Under the pieces are notes generated by a model, which ran no database searches, was not told where the DNA came from, and saw only the letters and a list, made by a program, of their open reading frames with translations. Shown here one piece after another: positions 1 through 5,599 of a stretch of DNA of 5,599 nt. The position numbers and the translations under genes are program-made. Source of the DNA: an uncultured Chloroflexota bacterium (GTDB lineage Bacteria > Chloroflexota > Anaerolineae > Aggregatilineales > Phototrophicaceae). Positions within the stretch are counted from its first letter, which is position 1; each line of letters starts with the position of its first letter. The stretch lies in NCBI GenBank assembly GCA_903904765.1, contig CAIVEA010000297.1, positions 1 to 5,599 of the forward strand. Direction: 5' to 3'.

Positions 1-879
1 AGTTCTCCTTTGACGATCACCGGCTATAGCGTAACGGGTAGTCCGCCATTGTCGGTGACAACCAGCACTTTCACTATCGCGGACGGCGGTGCATCGGTCA
101 ATATTCCGGTGCAGTGTAGTTCGGCATCGGCGGGGACGTTTAGTGGTGGAACGCTGACGGTTTATCACAACGCAGCAGGTAGTCCGGCGACGTATCCTGT
201 AGTTTGTAATGTGACGGCAGCGCCTACTACGCCTACATATACCTCGAATCCGGCACCGGGTTCGACGCTCGTGATTAGCACCACACTCGGTTCGGGGGCA
301 AGCGGTTCCATCCGCGTGACGAACACCGGAACGGGGACACTGAGCATTACCAATGTGGTGCTGGGTGCCAGTGCACAGTTGTCGCTGGTCTCGTCGCCAA
401 CGGTGAATGTGGCTTCTGGACAGTTTACTGATATCACCGTTCAGTGTGCTGCGGGTGCAGTTGGTAGTTTTAGTGCCAGTCTCGTGGTGACGCATTCTGC
501 AACGGGAACCCCCGCCAACTATACCGTGCGCTGCGATGTGGTGGCTACGGCGGCAGCTTATGGCTCAACCCCTGCGCCTAGCTCCACACTTGACATTGGT
601 ATGGTGCTGATCGGCACAGCCATTTCCAACAACCTGACCATTTTCGAAACGGGCGGGGCGGCGCTGAACATCAATTCAGCCACCATTTCTGGGTCTACGG
701 AATTTGCGATTACAGCAGGCATGCCGCCCTTCACCATTGCGGATGGTGGCGTGGCGCGTTCGATTACCATCACCTGCATTCCGACTTCTGCGGGGCTGCG
801 GACGGCGCTGCTGACCATTACTACGAATGTGCCTACGCAGTCCACCGTGACCTACGGGTTGTCTTGTACGGGCAGTACG
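1..879 (+). repeat. Three tandem Ig-like (ASH/choice-of-anchor-D type) protein repeats
   Basis: Three coding repeats of about 100 residues follow one another; the first is cut by the window edge. Each has one cysteine in a (V/I)xC strand (codons at 115, 445 and 775) and a second in a terminal YxVxC or YGLSC strand (codons at 205, 532 and 865). The spacing within each pair is 30, 29 and 30 codons. The second and third repeats open with similar sequences (NPAPGSTLVI and TPAPSSTLDI). The regular spacing suggests one disulphide per repeat, in keeping with an extracellular location; the disulphide is inferred. Confidence 0.75.
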
Positions 880-1458
880 ACAGTAGTGGTGACGGCTACA
901 CCAGTCGGGTTTGTGGCATCACCCACGCCGCCGCCTGCTCCCACCGCAACAGTAATCGTCCCTGCAACGGGAACGGTGCAGGGTGCGAAGGGCTTGGCGA
1001 TCCGCACCGGTCCGTATCTGGGGGCATCGTTAATCGGGGTGCTGCGTCCGGGGACGGAATACTCGATTCTGGCGATGAACAATGACGAAGGCACTTATAC
1101 ATGGTATCTGGTCGAGGTTAACGGGCGGCAGGGTTGGGTGTCTGGGCGCTTCCTCGATGTGAAGGGGACGACCAGCGCGATTGCCTCTGCTGGTAGCGTG
1201 TTCGACCAAATTGATGGTGCAGCGGACATTGGTGTGCGCGTGGTGACGGATGCGATCGTGGATTTGCGCCGCCGTCCCAGCCCGCGTATGCCTTCGATTG
1301 CGGTCATTCCGGCGAATGCAGAACTGATCGTGATTGGGCGCAGCGTGCAGGAGAAGCAAACTTTCTGGTTGCAGGTCATCTACAATGGTACGGTGGGCTG
1401 GATACCGTCGTTGCCGGTGGCGCTGCGCGGGCCGGTGGATAATCTGCCCGTCCGCTAG
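1..1458 (+). CDS. Secreted/surface protein with ASH-like (choice-of-anchor-D) Ig repeats and two SH3b domains, 5' partial
   Basis: The frame is open from base 1 and ends at TAG 1456-1458, so the start and any signal peptide lie upstream; the in-frame TTG at base 10 is not a credible start. Three Ig-like beta-sandwich repeats come first (about bases 1-225, 241-555 and 559-879), rich in Ser, Thr, Gly and Val, with motifs such as FTIADGG and TLTVYHNAAGSPATY. A Pro/Thr-rich linker (about 886-975) leads to two bacterial SH3 domains (982-1167 and 1225-1437), recognisable from LAIRTGP...GVLRPGTEY...WYLVEVNGRQGWV and VDLRRRPS...FWLQVIYNGTVGWI. Such repeats and SH3b domains are known from extracellular proteins, where SH3b often binds cell wall or peptides. 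I infer a cell-surface or envelope-associated role; no catalytic domain is visible in the part seen. A hairpin terminator follows 41 bases after the stop. The family assignment of the repeats is by pattern only. Confidence 0.8.
   Translation, partial: SSPLTITGYSVTGSPPLSVTTSTFTIADGGASVNIPVQCSSASAGTFSGGTLTVYHNAAGSPATYPVVCNVTAAPTTPTYTSNPAPGSTLVISTTLGSGASGSIRVTNTGTGTLSITNVVLGASAQLSLVSSPTVNVASGQFTDITVQCAAGAVGSFSASLVVTHSATGTPANYTVRCDVVATAAAYGSTPAPSSTLDIGMVLIGTAISNNLTIFETGGAALNINSATISGSTEFAITAGMPPFTIADGGVARSITITCIPTSAGLRTALLTITTNVPTQSTVTYGLSCTGSTTVVVTATPVGFVASPTPPPAPTATVIVPATGTVQGAKGLAIRTGPYLGASLIGVLRPGTEYSILAMNNDEGTYTWYLVEVNGRQGWVSGRFLDVKGTTSAIASAGSVFDQIDGAADIGVRVVTDAIVDLRRRPSPRMPSIAVIPANAELIVIGRSVQEKQTFWLQVIYNGTVGWIPSLPVALRGPVDNLPVR
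982..1437 (+). repeat. Two SH3b domains at the C-terminus of the surface protein
   Basis: Two SH3b copies lie at 982-1167 and about 1225-1437. Both show the usual order: a strand with an R(T/R)GP- or RRRPS-like turn, a hydrophobic strand before a Pro-containing turn (GVLRPGTEY, AVIPANAEL), an aromatic W-(Y/L)-(L/Q)-V strand, and the G(R/T)xGW(V/I) strand. The second copy is the more divergent. Bacterial SH3b domains commonly bind peptidoglycan or peptides; the ligand here cannot be told from sequence. Confidence 0.75.
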
Positions 1459-1499
1459 AGCCGCTATAGACGGTGCTGTGTAGGGTTAGTCGTTCTTTC

Positions 1500-1530
1500 A
1501 ACCGCCTCTCCATCTGGAGGGGCGGTTTTT
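1500..1530 (+). terminator. Rho-independent terminator (or leader attenuator)
   Basis: The left arm ACCGCCTCTCC (1501-1511) pairs with the right arm GGAGGGGCGGT (1516-1526) across a 4-base ATCT loop. There is one T-G wobble, the A1500-T1527 pair extends the stem to 12 bp, and a run of five T ends at 1530. This is a textbook intrinsic-terminator shape, 41 bases after the stop of the surface-protein gene. It ends only 4 bases before the Shine-Dalgarno sequence of the peptidase gene, so it may also act in that gene's leader. Confidence 0.85.
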
Positions 1531-1534
1531 ACAC

Positions 1535-1540
1535 AAGGAG
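1535..1540 (+). promoter_or_regulatory. Ribosome binding site of the M42 peptidase gene
   Basis: AAGGAG lies 11 bases before ATG 1552, a slightly long spacing. It supports this ATG as the start. It begins 4 bases after the T-run of the hairpin, which leaves no space for a separate promoter between terminator and gene. Confidence 0.75.
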
Positions 1541-1551
1541 ATTGTTAGGCT

Positions 1552-2598
1552 ATGAGCTTGTCTTTCCTCAAGCAACTCTTGAACGCGCCGGGGCCGTCCG
1601 GTAGTGAAATCGCGCCTGCTCGCCTGTGGCGCGGCGAAGCTGAGTCGTTTGCAGATCGGGTATGGGCGGATGTGCGTGGCAACAGCTACGCGCTGCTGGA
1701 GGCGAGCAGTGGGCCGCGTGTGCTGCTGGGCGGGCATATTGACGAGATTGGTTTGCTGATTACGCATATTGATGAGGACGGTTTCCTGTCGTTCGCGGGC
1801 GTGGGCGGCTGGGATCCGACGGTGCTGATCGGACAGCGCATCCGGCTACTCGGAAAACAGGGGGATGTACTGGGGTGCGTCGGCAAAAAGCCAATCCATC
1901 TGATGAAGCCGGACGAACCGCAGCCGAAGATTGAAAATATGTGGATTGACATCGGCGTGCAGTCCAAAGAGGAAGCACAGGCGCTGGTGCGGGTGGGGAT
2001 GTATGGCGTGATTGATAGCACCACCTATGAGCTACCGAATGGGCGTGTGGTTTCGCGCAGTCTGGATAACCGGATCGGCGCGTACACGGTGCTGGAGGCG
2101 CTGCGTTTGCTTGCAGCGGAACGTCCGGCAGTTCCGGTGGCAGCAGTGGCGACCATTCAGGAAGAAATCACATTCGCAGGCGCGTATACGGCGGCATACG
2201 AGTTTCAGCCGCAGGCGGCGATTGTGGTGGATGTAACTCATGCGACGGATTATCCGACGGCGGATAAGAAACTGCGCGGTGAAGCACAGTTGGGCGGCGG
2301 GCCGGCGCTGGCGGTGGGGTCGGTCAATCACCCGCTAGTGACGCAGCGGTTGATGGAACTGGCAGAACAGGCCAGCATCCCGTACACCGTGAAGATCAAT
2401 CCGTCCGCCTCGTATACGGATGCGGATGCGATTCATCTGTCACGTTCGGGTGTGGCCTGCGGTGTGGTGTCCATACCCAACCGTTACATGCACTCTCCGA
2501 ACGAAATGATCGCCATGAGCGATGTGGAACAGGCGGCGCGGTTGATCGCGCTGTTCGTGCGCTCTCTGAAGGTGGATGAGGATTTTGTCCTGCGTTGA
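1552..2598 (+). CDS. M42 family metallopeptidase (glutamyl/deblocking aminopeptidase type)
   Basis: A complete 348-residue protein, the usual length for peptidase family M42 (cytosolic dimetal aminopeptidases that often form dodecameric tetrahedral particles and trim peptides from the N-terminus). Visible family marks, in order: APGPSGSE near the N-terminus (residues 12-19); GGHIDEIG with metal ligand His62 and Asp64; SLDNRIGAY with bridging Asp172; IQEE with catalytic Glu204 and ligand Glu205; VVDVTHATDYP with ligand Asp227; and NRYMHSPNE with ligand His314. All expected ligands are present, so it should be active. There is no signal peptide, in keeping with a cytoplasmic enzyme in peptide turnover. 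The ATG is supported by AAGGAG 11 bases upstream. The next gene starts 11 bases after the stop and is probably co-transcribed. Exact substrate preference (glutamyl, leucyl or other) cannot be told; some family members are annotated as endoglucanase/CelM, which I consider misleading. Confidence 0.93.
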   Translation: MSLSFLKQLLNAPGPSGSEIAPARLWRGEAESFADRVWADVRGNSYALLEASSGPRVLLGGHIDEIGLLITHIDEDGFLSFAGVGGWDPTVLIGQRIRLLGKQGDVLGCVGKKPIHLMKPDEPQPKIENMWIDIGVQSKEEAQALVRVGMYGVIDSTTYELPNGRVVSRSLDNRIGAYTVLEALRLLAAERPAVPVAAVATIQEEITFAGAYTAAYEFQPQAAIVVDVTHATDYPTADKKLRGEAQLGGGPALAVGSVNHPLVTQRLMELAEQASIPYTVKINPSASYTDADAIHLSRSGVACGVVSIPNRYMHSPNEMIAMSDVEQAARLIALFVRSLKVDEDFVLR

Positions 2599-2603
2599 GG
2601 GGG
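2598..2603 (+). promoter_or_regulatory. Ribosome binding site overlapping the peptidase stop codon
   Basis: AGGGGG begins with the last base of the peptidase TGA (2596-2598) and stands 6 bases before GTG 2610. This spacing favours GTG 2610 over the in-frame TTG at 2595, which overlaps the stop codon and has no such sequence before it. The arrangement suggests translational coupling of the two genes. Confidence 0.6.
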
Positions 2604-2609
2604 TGTGCG

Positions 2610-3065
2610 GTGGGGTATTTCTTCCGGTTTTTTGCAGGTGATGCACAGGGGCTGGATTTCCTCTCGGTGCAGGCTGGGCTGCGTAAATTTGATGCACAGT
2701 ATCATCTGGAGATAGACGAACTGCGCGAATTGGCAGTGCTGCTGCACGGGCAGCAACAACTGGCGCTGGTGGAGATCAATCTGCCGGATGATGACATTTT
2801 TCAGGATGATCTGGACGAATTTCTCGATCTGGTGGGGGAGGGTGGTTCGCCAGCCGAGAGCCGCGTCCGGGCTGCTCTGCAAGCGACACAGGCAATTGTG
2901 GCGGTGGAGGCACAGTGGGCGGGTGAAGATGCCGAGCCGGTCTTGAGCCGGATTGACTCGTTGTGGGACTGGCTGTTTGCCCATCATGACGGGCTACTTC
3001 AGGCCGATGGCGAGGGCTTTTATGATGCCGAAGGGCTGGTGCTGAGGCGGCATTTCACGCTGTAA
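2610..3065 (+). CDS. Hypothetical acidic protein, coupled to the M42 peptidase
   Basis: A 151-residue protein from GTG 2610 to TAA 3063-3065; I do not recognise its family. It starts MGYFFRFFAGD and has no signal peptide or membrane segment. It is strongly acidic, with 29 Asp/Glu against 9 Lys/Arg by my count, including a cluster at residues 60-73 (DDDIFQDDLDEFLD). The middle looks mixed alpha/beta; the later part includes a likely amphipathic helix (about 82-100) and an aromatic stretch SLWDWLFAHHDG. It has no cysteine and no obvious catalytic motif. The start was chosen for the AGGGGG sequence 6 bases upstream; the in-frame TTG at 2595 would add five residues. Its position right after the peptidase gene suggests co-transcription, but not a function. 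The ending, FYDAEGLVLRRHFTL, looks like a natural C-terminus. It is convergent with the cytochrome gene, with 6 bases between the two stops. Confidence 0.8.
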   Translation: MGYFFRFFAGDAQGLDFLSVQAGLRKFDAQYHLEIDELRELAVLLHGQQQLALVEINLPDDDIFQDDLDEFLDLVGEGGSPAESRVRAALQATQAIVAVEAQWAGEDAEPVLSRIDSLWDWLFAHHDGLLQADGEGFYDAEGLVLRRHFTL

Positions 3066-3071
3066 CTGCGC

Positions 3072-3689
3072 CTAACAGGGGGTGCGTCCGGTCTGGTCGC
3101 AGAAGGAATACACGACCTGTCCGGTGCGCTTGTATTTCGCCAGCAGCGAGAAGCTGTAGGTGAAGTCCGGCGTTTCGGCAGTGCTGTGACACTGGAAACA
3201 GAGTGTCAAAGGTTCGGGGTAGGCTTCTCCGGCGGTGGTGAACGAGCCGTAATTCCAATCGCCGTTGCGGGTATCGTCCGCGAAGGTGCTATCCGGCCAA
3301 TCGGGGCGTTTGGCACGCAGATGCAGTGCGCCGAACGCTTCCCCGCGCTGATAGCGCCCGTCTGTATCGGTCAGCCATGCACCATCTGTAGTGCGTTCGG
3401 CGTTGTACGCGGCGATCACGAGAATGCTGCCGTTCGGTAGCGTATAGCCGCCAATGTAGGATGATAGCGCGGCGGAGTTGATGTACAGATCGCGCAGTGT
3501 CCCATCGGGGCGCTGCACGGTGGCATACTGCGTGAAGCCAGCGGGAAATCCGGCGGGCAGCGCCAGCGTGACGGGCGCAGGTTTTTCGGTGCGACTGGCG
3601 AGCAGTGGCAATAAGGCGAACAGGCCGCCTAGGACAAGATACAGCCAGAGAGTGTTGTTCAAGCGGAGTCGCTTTTTAAGGTGCATCAT
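3072..3689 (-). CDS. Membrane-anchored cytochrome P460 family protein (monoheme c-type)
   Basis: A protein of about 205 residues, read right to left from ATG 3689-3687 to TAG 3074-3072. After a basic start (MMHLKKRLRL), residues 12-31 form an uncleaved signal anchor or signal peptide (TLWLYLVLGGLFALLPLLAS); there is no lipobox cysteine. The body fits the cytochrome P460 family: LPAGFPAGFTQY, LRDLYINSAA, LPNGSILVIAAY, NGDWNYGSF, then the heme c site CFQCH (residues 164-168) followed by STAETPDFTYSF, like the usual CxxCH...DxVFT ending. I infer a periplasmic or outward-facing heme protein. Family members include hydroxylamine- and NO-reacting enzymes with a Lys-heme cross-link, but I cannot identify such a Lys here, so no reaction is assigned. 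After the heme site the protein carries two more cysteines (197 and 205, the last residue). The start is uncertain: ATG 3686 or ATG 3734 (15 residues longer) are possible, and none has a clear Shine-Dalgarno sequence. Confidence 0.8.
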   Translation of the reverse strand: MMHLKKRLRLNNTLWLYLVLGGLFALLPLLASRTEKPAPVTLALPAGFPAGFTQYATVQRPDGTLRDLYINSAALSSYIGGYTLPNGSILVIAAYNAERTTDGAWLTDTDGRYQRGEAFGALHLRAKRPDWPDSTFADDTRNGDWNYGSFTTAGEAYPEPLTLCFQCHSTAETPDFTYSFSLLAKYKRTGQVVYSFCDQTGRTPC

Positions 3690-3738
3690 CGGGTTTGATT
3701 TTTCATCCGTACTGCGTTGGTTTCCGGCAGCCATGAGA

Positions 3739-3759
3739 TACAATATGTAACAGTATGTA
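3739..3759. promoter_or_regulatory. Candidate operator: symmetric 21-bp palindrome
   Basis: The sequence reads TACA-N3-TGT-N-ACA-N3-TGTA, symmetric about base 3749, with all 14 specified bases obeying the dyad. It lies 46 bases before the plus-strand ATG and 49 bases before the likely minus-strand start, a fitting place for a regulator acting on one or both divergent promoters. TACA/TGTA half sites recall the operators of BlaI/MecI/CopY-type repressors, but the spacing differs, so no regulator is assigned. Chance occurrence in AT-rich sequence is possible. Confidence 0.4.
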
Positions 3760-3793
3760 GTGGTATGGCTTTTTCGGGAAGTATAGCTTTGGC

Positions 3794-3799
3794 AAGGAG
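3794..3799 (+). promoter_or_regulatory. Ribosome binding site of the X25-module protein gene
   Basis: AAGGAG is placed 6 bases before ATG 3806, an ideal spacing. It fixes this start, which also gives a clean signal peptide. Confidence 0.85.
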
Positions 3800-3805
3800 T
3801 TTTCC

Positions 3806-5563
3806 ATGAGTCATCGCTGGATTCTGGCAGGATTGAGCCTGCTTTTAGTGGTTGGCCTTTTGGTGGGTGTGCCGCTGGTCGCACAAGATCAGAGTGCCCC
3901 ACCGACTTCGGTGACAGTGGCGGGTACGATTCAGGCGGCGCTGGGTTGCCCCGGCGACTGGCAACCGGAATGCACGACTACCGGACTGGCCTATGATGCC
4001 GAAGATGATGTATGGTTTGGCGAGTTCAACCTGCCAGCGGGTAGCTATGAGTATAAAGCCGCCCTGAACGGCAGTTGGGACGAGAACTATGGCGCAGGTG
4101 CGGAGGCTGGCGGCGCGAATATCCCGCTGGTACTCGATCAGGACGCGACGGTTCGCTTCTATTATGACCACAAGACACACTGGATTACGGACAGCATCAA
4201 CTCGCAGATCGTGGTGGTGGTAGGTGATTTCCAGACGGCGTTGGGCTGCGCGGCGAATGATGATGTGACGTGCATGCGGGCGTGGCTGCAAGACCCGGAC
4301 GGCAACGGTGTGTACAACTTCTCCACCACCGCGATTCCTGTGGGCAGCTATACCCTGCGCGTGGCACTCAACCAGAGCGCGGATGAAGTCTATGGCGCAC
4401 GCGGGGCACTGAATGGTGACCCGGTGGCGTTCGAGGTGACGCAAGACGGCTTTAAGACGACGGTGGGCTTTGCCGCGGCGCGTAAGTTCATCAATGTGAA
4501 GGTGAGCGACCCGGCAGCGGAAGCTGCGCCGATTGTTCAGCCGACAGCCGTTCCGGTGGCGGTAGCTGGTCTGACCGCGACAGTTCCGGGCAGCTATAAC
4601 AGCGAAATCGGCTGTGACCCTGATCTGGGCGTGGATGGCGACTGGGCACCGGACTGCACGTTAGCGCTGATGACCGACCCGGACGGGGATGGTATCTACA
4701 CGTTTGTGACGGGCGCAATTCCGGCGGGCAAGTATGAGGCCAAAGTTGCGATTGATCTGAGTTGGACGGTCAATTACGGCGCGGACGGTGTGAGTGGCGG
4801 CGCGAATATTCCATTTGAAGTGACGGTGGATTACGCGCAGGTGACGTTCAACTTCGACTCGGCTTCCAAAGTGATGACGGTTGCGATTGATCCGACCATC
4901 ATTGGCGGGCCAGCACCTGCGGGTGGGGCGGCTGCGGCTGTGCCGATTATCGTGCCGCCGAAGGATGTGGCGCAACCGGATAAGGTGGTCATTCCCGGCA
5001 CGATTCAGACGGCGCTCGGTTGCCCCACCGATCAAGGTGATAAGGGCAACTGGAATCCCGCCTGCGACAACTCCGGCCTGACGTTTGATGAAGCCGATGG
5101 CGTGTGGCAGGGGACGTTCGATCTGCCTGCGGGTGATTATGAGTATAAGGTGGCGCTGGGTGGGACGTGGGATGTGAACTATGGCGGCAACGCCGATGCG
5201 GGTGGGCCGAACATTCCGTTGAAGTTAGGTGCGGATAGCAGCGTGAAGTTCTACTATGACGCAGTTTCGCACTGGGTTGCGGATAGCGTGGGGGATGTGA
5301 TTGCGGTTGCCCCGGGTAGCTTCCAGAGCGAACTGGGCTGCCCCGGCGACTGGCAGCCGGACTGCCTGCGAAGCTGGTTGCAAGACCCGGATGGGGATGG
5401 CGTGTACGTCTTTACGACGGACGCGATTCCGGCGGGTGATTATGAAGTGAAGGTGGCGTTGAATGAAAGTTGGGATGTCAATTACGGGGCGGACGCGGCG
5501 GCGGGTGGTGCAAACATCCCGTTCAACGTGCCTGCCGACGGGACTCCGGTGGCGTTCGTTTAA
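3806..5563 (+). CDS. Secreted multi-module X25 (pullulanase-type) starch-binding protein; probable N-terminal part of a pullulanase/amylase, stopped early
   Basis: The frame encodes 585 residues up to TAA 5561-5563. Residues 1-26 are a signal peptide (MSHR, a long hydrophobic core, cleavage probably after PLVA). Five beta-sandwich modules of about 95-105 residues follow: 38-135, 139-235, 256-363, 396-501 and 502-end, with Ala/Pro-rich linkers at 236-255 and 364-395. Module marks are LGC...W-x-P-x-C, (I/L)PAGxYExKVAL, W-D-x-NYG, GGxNIP(L/F) and FYYD. They match my knowledge of the X25 domain of bacterial pullulanases, thought to bind alpha-glucan, and Chloroflexota amylases/pullulanases with such tandem modules are familiar. 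I infer an extracellular starch or glycogen degrading enzyme whose GH13 catalytic domain would lie beyond the window. The TAA falls inside module 5, and the same frame then stays open to base 5599 with fitting residues, so the gene may carry a nonsense mutation or sequencing error. If the stop is real, the product is a secreted, non-catalytic binding protein. Confidence 0.82.
   Translation: MSHRWILAGLSLLLVVGLLVGVPLVAQDQSAPPTSVTVAGTIQAALGCPGDWQPECTTTGLAYDAEDDVWFGEFNLPAGSYEYKAALNGSWDENYGAGAEAGGANIPLVLDQDATVRFYYDHKTHWITDSINSQIVVVVGDFQTALGCAANDDVTCMRAWLQDPDGNGVYNFSTTAIPVGSYTLRVALNQSADEVYGARGALNGDPVAFEVTQDGFKTTVGFAAARKFINVKVSDPAAEAAPIVQPTAVPVAVAGLTATVPGSYNSEIGCDPDLGVDGDWAPDCTLALMTDPDGDGIYTFVTGAIPAGKYEAKVAIDLSWTVNYGADGVSGGANIPFEVTVDYAQVTFNFDSASKVMTVAIDPTIIGGPAPAGGAAAAVPIIVPPKDVAQPDKVVIPGTIQTALGCPTDQGDKGNWNPACDNSGLTFDEADGVWQGTFDLPAGDYEYKVALGGTWDVNYGGNADAGGPNIPLKLGADSSVKFYYDAVSHWVADSVGDVIAVAPGSFQSELGCPGDWQPDCLRSWLQDPDGDGVYVFTTDAIPAGDYEVKVALNESWDVNYGADAAAGGANIPFNVPADGTPVAFV
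3941..3973 (+). repeat. Direct DNA repeat, copy 1 (matches 5333-5365)
   Basis: These 33 bases encode LGCPGDWQPEC in module 1. They differ from 5333-5365 in module 5 (LGCPGDWQPDC) at only 3 positions, closer than the rest of the two modules. This suggests recent duplication or gene conversion between modules. Confidence 0.8.
5333..5365 (+). repeat. Direct DNA repeat, copy 2 (matches 3941-3973)
   Basis: This is the second copy of the 33-base segment with 30 of 33 bases identical. It sits in module 5, whose later part follows the type-B pattern of module 3, so module 5 looks like a mosaic of module types. Confidence 0.8.
5561..5563 (+). other. In-frame TAA inside X25 module 5
   Basis: The codons read V-A-F-V-TAA-N-A-A-T-N-V-L-L-V-G-A-G to the window end. 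Module 3 has V-T-F-N-F-D-S-A-S-K-V-M-T-V at the same place, so TAA stands where an aromatic residue is expected (Phe in module 3; Tyr in modules 1 and 4). A single change of TAT or TAC to TAA would explain it. The downstream residues keep the module pattern, so no frameshift is involved. Confidence 0.8.
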
Positions 5564-5599
5564 AACGCGGCGACTAACGTGCTGCTGGTGGGGGCGGGA

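Follow-up and report, generated by a model that had tools for sequence, protein, structure and literature searches.

A stop codon private to one contig probably interrupts the gene of a secreted, X25-containing pullulanase near the contig end

The stretch of DNA analysed here (the window) is an entire contig of 5,599 bases, and it raises the question of whether a TAA codon (5561–5563, + strand), after which only 36 bases remain, terminates a complete protein or breaks a longer gene. An ATG at position 3806 shares its frame with this TAA, resulting in an ORF of 585 amino acids (3806–5563, + strand), and the frame beyond the stop holds 12 further codons, NAATNVLLVGAG, as far as the last codon that the window holds in full (5564–5599, + strand). 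Judged by eye, the N-terminus of the ORF is hydrophobic and resembles a Sec signal peptide. The sequence-only reading had warned that such an ORF would be miscalled as a complete protein, and this is what has occurred: automatic annotation logs a complete X25 protein of 585 residues, which is already on record (P0001), whereas the evidence given below points to the front of a pullulanase of ~1,490 residues. No NCBIfam match was obtained for the 585-residue product, and no sigma-70-like promoter was found in 3000–5599; the same region contained two terminator-like sites, each of them on the minus strand, a count that does not exceed chance expectation. A check of the window for phage origin gave no match.

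Five stretches of the 585-residue ORF matched the X25_BaPul_like family (PF22058; 412.2 bits, against a curated Pfam cut-off of 27). Through an alignment of the modules with each other, supplemented by the Pfam match for module 1, we delimited, approximately, module 1 (residues 35–134; 3908–4207), module 2 (residues 135–232; 4208–4501), module 3 (residues 251–365; 4556–4900) and module 4 (residues 393–492; 4982–5281), followed by module 5 (5282–5599), which is interrupted by the stop and has its final strand coded after the TAA; all five are on the + strand. In this alignment the 12 codons past the stop line up with the terminal portions of the other modules, and the column of the stop is occupied by Y, F, F and Y in the other four. 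An AlphaFold model of the G053 orthologue described below (residues 380–700; 32 sequences; mean pLDDT 91.3) places the stop site at model residue 207, within strand 203–208, with the next strand at 213–218, meaning that the TAA breaks the second-to-last strand of the module and leaves out the final one. Of the earlier proposal that the module is cut before its last strand, the loss of that strand holds, and the placement shifts in that the TAA itself falls inside the strand before it. Judging by this model, module 5 would be the one X25 module of the window that is left broken.

What follows the contig end can be read from relatives in which the gene is unbroken. Positions 11–5599 of the window are collinear with contig C44 of genome G053 (80.8% DNA identity), and the gene order is the same in both: an SH3-domain repeat protein, an M42 peptidase, a 156-aa gene, a cytochrome P460 gene on the opposite strand and the X25 gene. 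G053, the nearest of 154 genomes of the order by M42/156-aa DNA (83%), carries a stop-free X25 gene of 1,488 residues. The order of the M42, 156-aa, P460 and X25 genes is also kept in L001 (JAIOHM010000156.1, Anaerolineae MAG_04), where the last encodes a pullulanase of 1,474 residues, and a third protein, P0132 (1,482 aa, JGI), is 86.5% identical across 598 positions. In both the G053 and the L001 protein, five X25 modules are accompanied by Pullulanase_N2, CBM48 and Pullul_strch_C, and TIGR02103 is matched in full, starting at residue 610 in the former and 599 in the latter; by G053 numbering, this start lies 24 residues past the stop of the window, which is beyond the contig end. Being collinear with the G053 gene, syntenic with that of L001 and 86.5% identical to P0132, the window gene is an orthologue of these TIGR02103 pullulanases, and their architecture together with the collinearity indicates that its ORF corresponds to roughly the N-terminal 40% of the enzyme. 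A catalytic part is thus expected downstream of the stop, as had been anticipated from the window alone, since both syntenic genes carry the catalytic domains.

The match to G053 does not falter at the stop. The 598 codons of the window frame and the initial 598 codons of the G053 gene align throughout without an indel, identity over the X25 part is 90%, and ungapped blocks of 180 bases show 78–93% identity right up to the end. Past the TAA, 33/36 bases (binomial P ~1e-14 under an assumed match rate of 0.3) and 11/12 residues match G053, indicating that the continuation is more than chance. The central observation of the sequence-only reading, an in-frame stop with coding homology beyond it, is thereby confirmed. 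We consider it very likely that the window holds an interrupted secreted pullulanase gene with a single-base TAA private to this contig. The window would end within the gene of a GH13-type alpha-1,6-glucosidase with the order of its orthologues, namely signal peptide, five X25 modules, Pullulanase_N2, CBM48 and catalytic domain; the catalytic part would follow in the organism of the window too, and the X25 modules would bind starch that the catalytic part would debranch. Searching with the catalytic parts of L001 and G053 as protein queries, we recognised no same-species contig with the catalytic part in the best 120 of about 8,000 candidates per query, P0132 being the nearest.

The same gene is likewise cut by contig ends inside the X25 array in genome G044, which we counted in favour of an interrupted pullulanase gene. 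There it is split across two contigs (G044:C508 and G044:C366), and two proteins on record, P0004 and P0122, fit these fragments in size. On a 3.0 Mb contig, the orthologue P0106 ceases to match in its CBM48 region and gives way to an unrelated tail that ends at 614 aa; by eye this looks like a frameshift, which would make P0106 a further damaged record of this gene. We also considered L088 as a relative with a split gene, based on a 513-aa frame with no pullulanase match beyond it, and rejected it as an example because the frame reaches the end of the available stretch.

The stop was also compared with the equivalent position throughout the family. The site is TAC in G053 and L001 and Tyr in P0132, all of which read on past it, and together with the residues of the other window modules this bears out the proposal of an aromatic position, with the TAA one base away from a Tyr codon. 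Among 117 loci, the best-match codon at the site could be aligned in 111 and was TAC in 59, TTT in 17, TTC in 16, TAT in 9, TGG in 9 and TCC in 1, with a stop in none (0/111). The six unaligned loci were L069, for which we took the match no further, and L113–L117, which are M42-region loci; some loci are duplicates (L083 = L112; L001 = L081), leaving 107 distinct contexts, again with no stop in any. In the 158 matches that span the site the residues were Y (96), F (48), W (12), G (1) and S (1). A search of 154 genomes from the order to which the genome of L001 (G001) belongs gave an X25 match in 77, and none of the matches listed contained an internal stop. Predicted proteins gave a similar picture (Y, 154; F, 75; W, 45; L, 5; N, 1; M, 1; 281 of 283 aligned at the site, P0001 included), and since such proteins cannot reveal internal stops, these counts bear on the aromatic position only; the two that were left unaligned, P0170 and P0210, are both without an X25 match. 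Taken together, the sequence comparisons indicate that the TAA is a change of one base confined to this contig and no feature of the family.

These counts also bear on the suggestion that the stop is read through or recoded to give a short and a long product. Homology does resume in frame immediately past the TAA, as this would demand, but a stop at the site is absent from all 111 aligned loci and from within the matches listed from the 154 genomes, and TAA is the ordinary terminator of another gene in the window (the 156-aa gene; TAG and TGA are used elsewhere). Left without support by the relatives, programmed readthrough is unlikely, and we put its chance close to nil. If translation restarted past the stop instead, the catalytic part so produced would presumably lack a signal peptide.

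A further suggestion was that the stop is functional and yields a short secreted X25 protein with which the species binds starch; such a protein would be expected to have counterparts. The C-terminus lies inside a match in 16 of the 283 proteins, and 25 proteins end within 60 residues after the site, the nearest of them 11 after it; this alignment misses proteins that are cut at the site itself, which it places via an inner module, as happens with P0001. Besides P0001, two proteins end near the equivalent site of a module: P0084 (422 aa, from a 1,366-base contig) stops 2 residues before it and P0091 (331 aa, Solirubrobacterales, from a 3,704-base contig and without a partial label) one to two residues after it. 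They show that X25 proteins recorded with mid-module ends exist, be it through breakage, fragmentary assembly or nature. Both are distant from the window protein, with 41–46% identity, and are orthologues by no test made, whereas the orthologues of the same architecture (G053, L001 and P0132) run on into the enzyme and none ends at this codon. The notion that relatives naturally end here thus fails for orthologues, and what remains of it is these two distant proteins ending ≤2 residues from the equivalent site.

In favour of such a protein, X25 does occur without a pullulanase, for example as a pair that closes a sugar-binding ABC protein (L082), and PMC9112005 describes starch binding by tandem X25 units in Sas20 and Sca5 of Ruminococcus bromii; PMC4712565 reports that deletion of the single X25 hardly altered the activity of the Bacillus acidopullulyticus pullulanase. 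By analogy with these reports, a lone X25 array could have some binding role. The stop would nevertheless sever a strand and leave module 5 incomplete, according to the AlphaFold model, and the naturally shortened protein, like readthrough, gained no support from the relatives, such that we regard a functional stop as very improbable. Very improbable, too, is the broader case of a TAA that is real and tolerated, with the X25 array secreted alone as a starch binder or with readthrough at a low level, in which binding and debranching would have been split from one gene.

For an interrupted pullulanase gene, the TAA could stem from an error in the consensus or from a mutation in the organism. Upstream of the stop, comparison of 597 codons with G053 gave a dN of 0.058 and a dS of 0.656 (NG86), and in the module 5 region the values were 0.017 and 0.350, implying purifying selection and hence that a real inactivation would be recent. 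A recent nonsense mutation, through which the pullulanase gene of this strain would be newly inactivated, agrees with a stop that is one base from a Tyr codon in a frame otherwise intact on both sides; 154 of the 5,265 possible single-base changes in the 585-aa ORF (~2.9%) create a stop. The mutation would have to be very recent given that no decay is seen upstream, and it could have struck anywhere in a gene of about 4.4 kb, yet the TAA sits within 39 bases of the contig end (2.2% of the frame's 1,794 bases). Consensus errors are likelier near a contig end than elsewhere, which counts for an error. The contig-terminal bases in turn favour a mutation in showing no unusual divergence: 35/39 match G053, and these 4 differences do not exceed the average over the gene, which gives no hint of a general contig-end error. 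Under assumed, unmeasured rates (0.0001–0.001 terminal consensus errors per base; 1% of genes freshly inactivated), the two causes differ in likelihood by no more than about fivefold. We slightly favour a consensus base error near the contig end, to which we give about an even chance, and hold a real, recent nonsense mutation to be a serious possibility that falls somewhat short of even. A contig end driven by a repeat was considered and rejected, as exact repeats in the window reach 17 bases at most.

If the stop is real, the secreted product would comprise four intact X25 modules plus a damaged fifth, severed from its enzyme, and the locus would hold an inactivated pullulanase gene, a further case of a secreted enzyme lost recently. 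As things stand, nothing new is taught about stop codons or starch use, and the phenomenon is an ordinary one, a private stop 36 bases before a contig end in a gene for a known kind of enzyme.

Among known systems, the closest are the Anaerolineae TIGR02103 pullulanases with an N-terminal X25 array (G053, L001 and P0132), which have the X25 modules in the same order as the window at 62–90% identity over the X25 part, with G053 and L001 sharing the flanking genes as well. They are unbroken (1,474–1,488 aa) with Tyr at the site, whereas the window has TAA and ends 36 bases later. The only PDB sequence match was 2wan (E 5.5e-7), the B. acidopullulyticus pullulanase, where X25 precedes CBM48 and GH13 as in the orthologues of the window gene. 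As given in PMC4712565, its order is CBM41-X45a-X25-X45b-CBM48-GH13, that is, one X25 as opposed to five, with CBM41 and X45 in addition. The ABC protein shares the module type (two X25 at its C-terminal end) and differs in having an SBP_bac fold in front and in ending after the last strand of a module. It is a sugar-binding protein of 627 aa (L082:1453–3336, − strand; SBP_bac_8 and SBP_bac_1), and the next ORF on the same strand resembles, by eye, a MalF-type permease. Open frames of about 615–670 aa with X25 matches, similar in size to this protein, were seen in several genomes, the Pfam scan having covered L082 only.

The neighbouring genes of the window yielded a few observations of their own. 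The cytochrome P460 gene (PF16694; 3072–3734, − strand) separates the X25 gene from the M42/156-aa pair, a placement kept in G053 and L001. The 156-aa gene (2595–3065, + strand), which gave no Pfam match, directly follows the M42 peptidase and stays beside it in G053 (78%) and L001 (46%). Lastly, a 5'-open ORF (1–1458, + strand) encodes the C-terminal part of a long protein built of repeats (HYDIN/VesB-like Ig and SH3_3), the G053 counterpart of which contains at least 1,314 residues of repeats.
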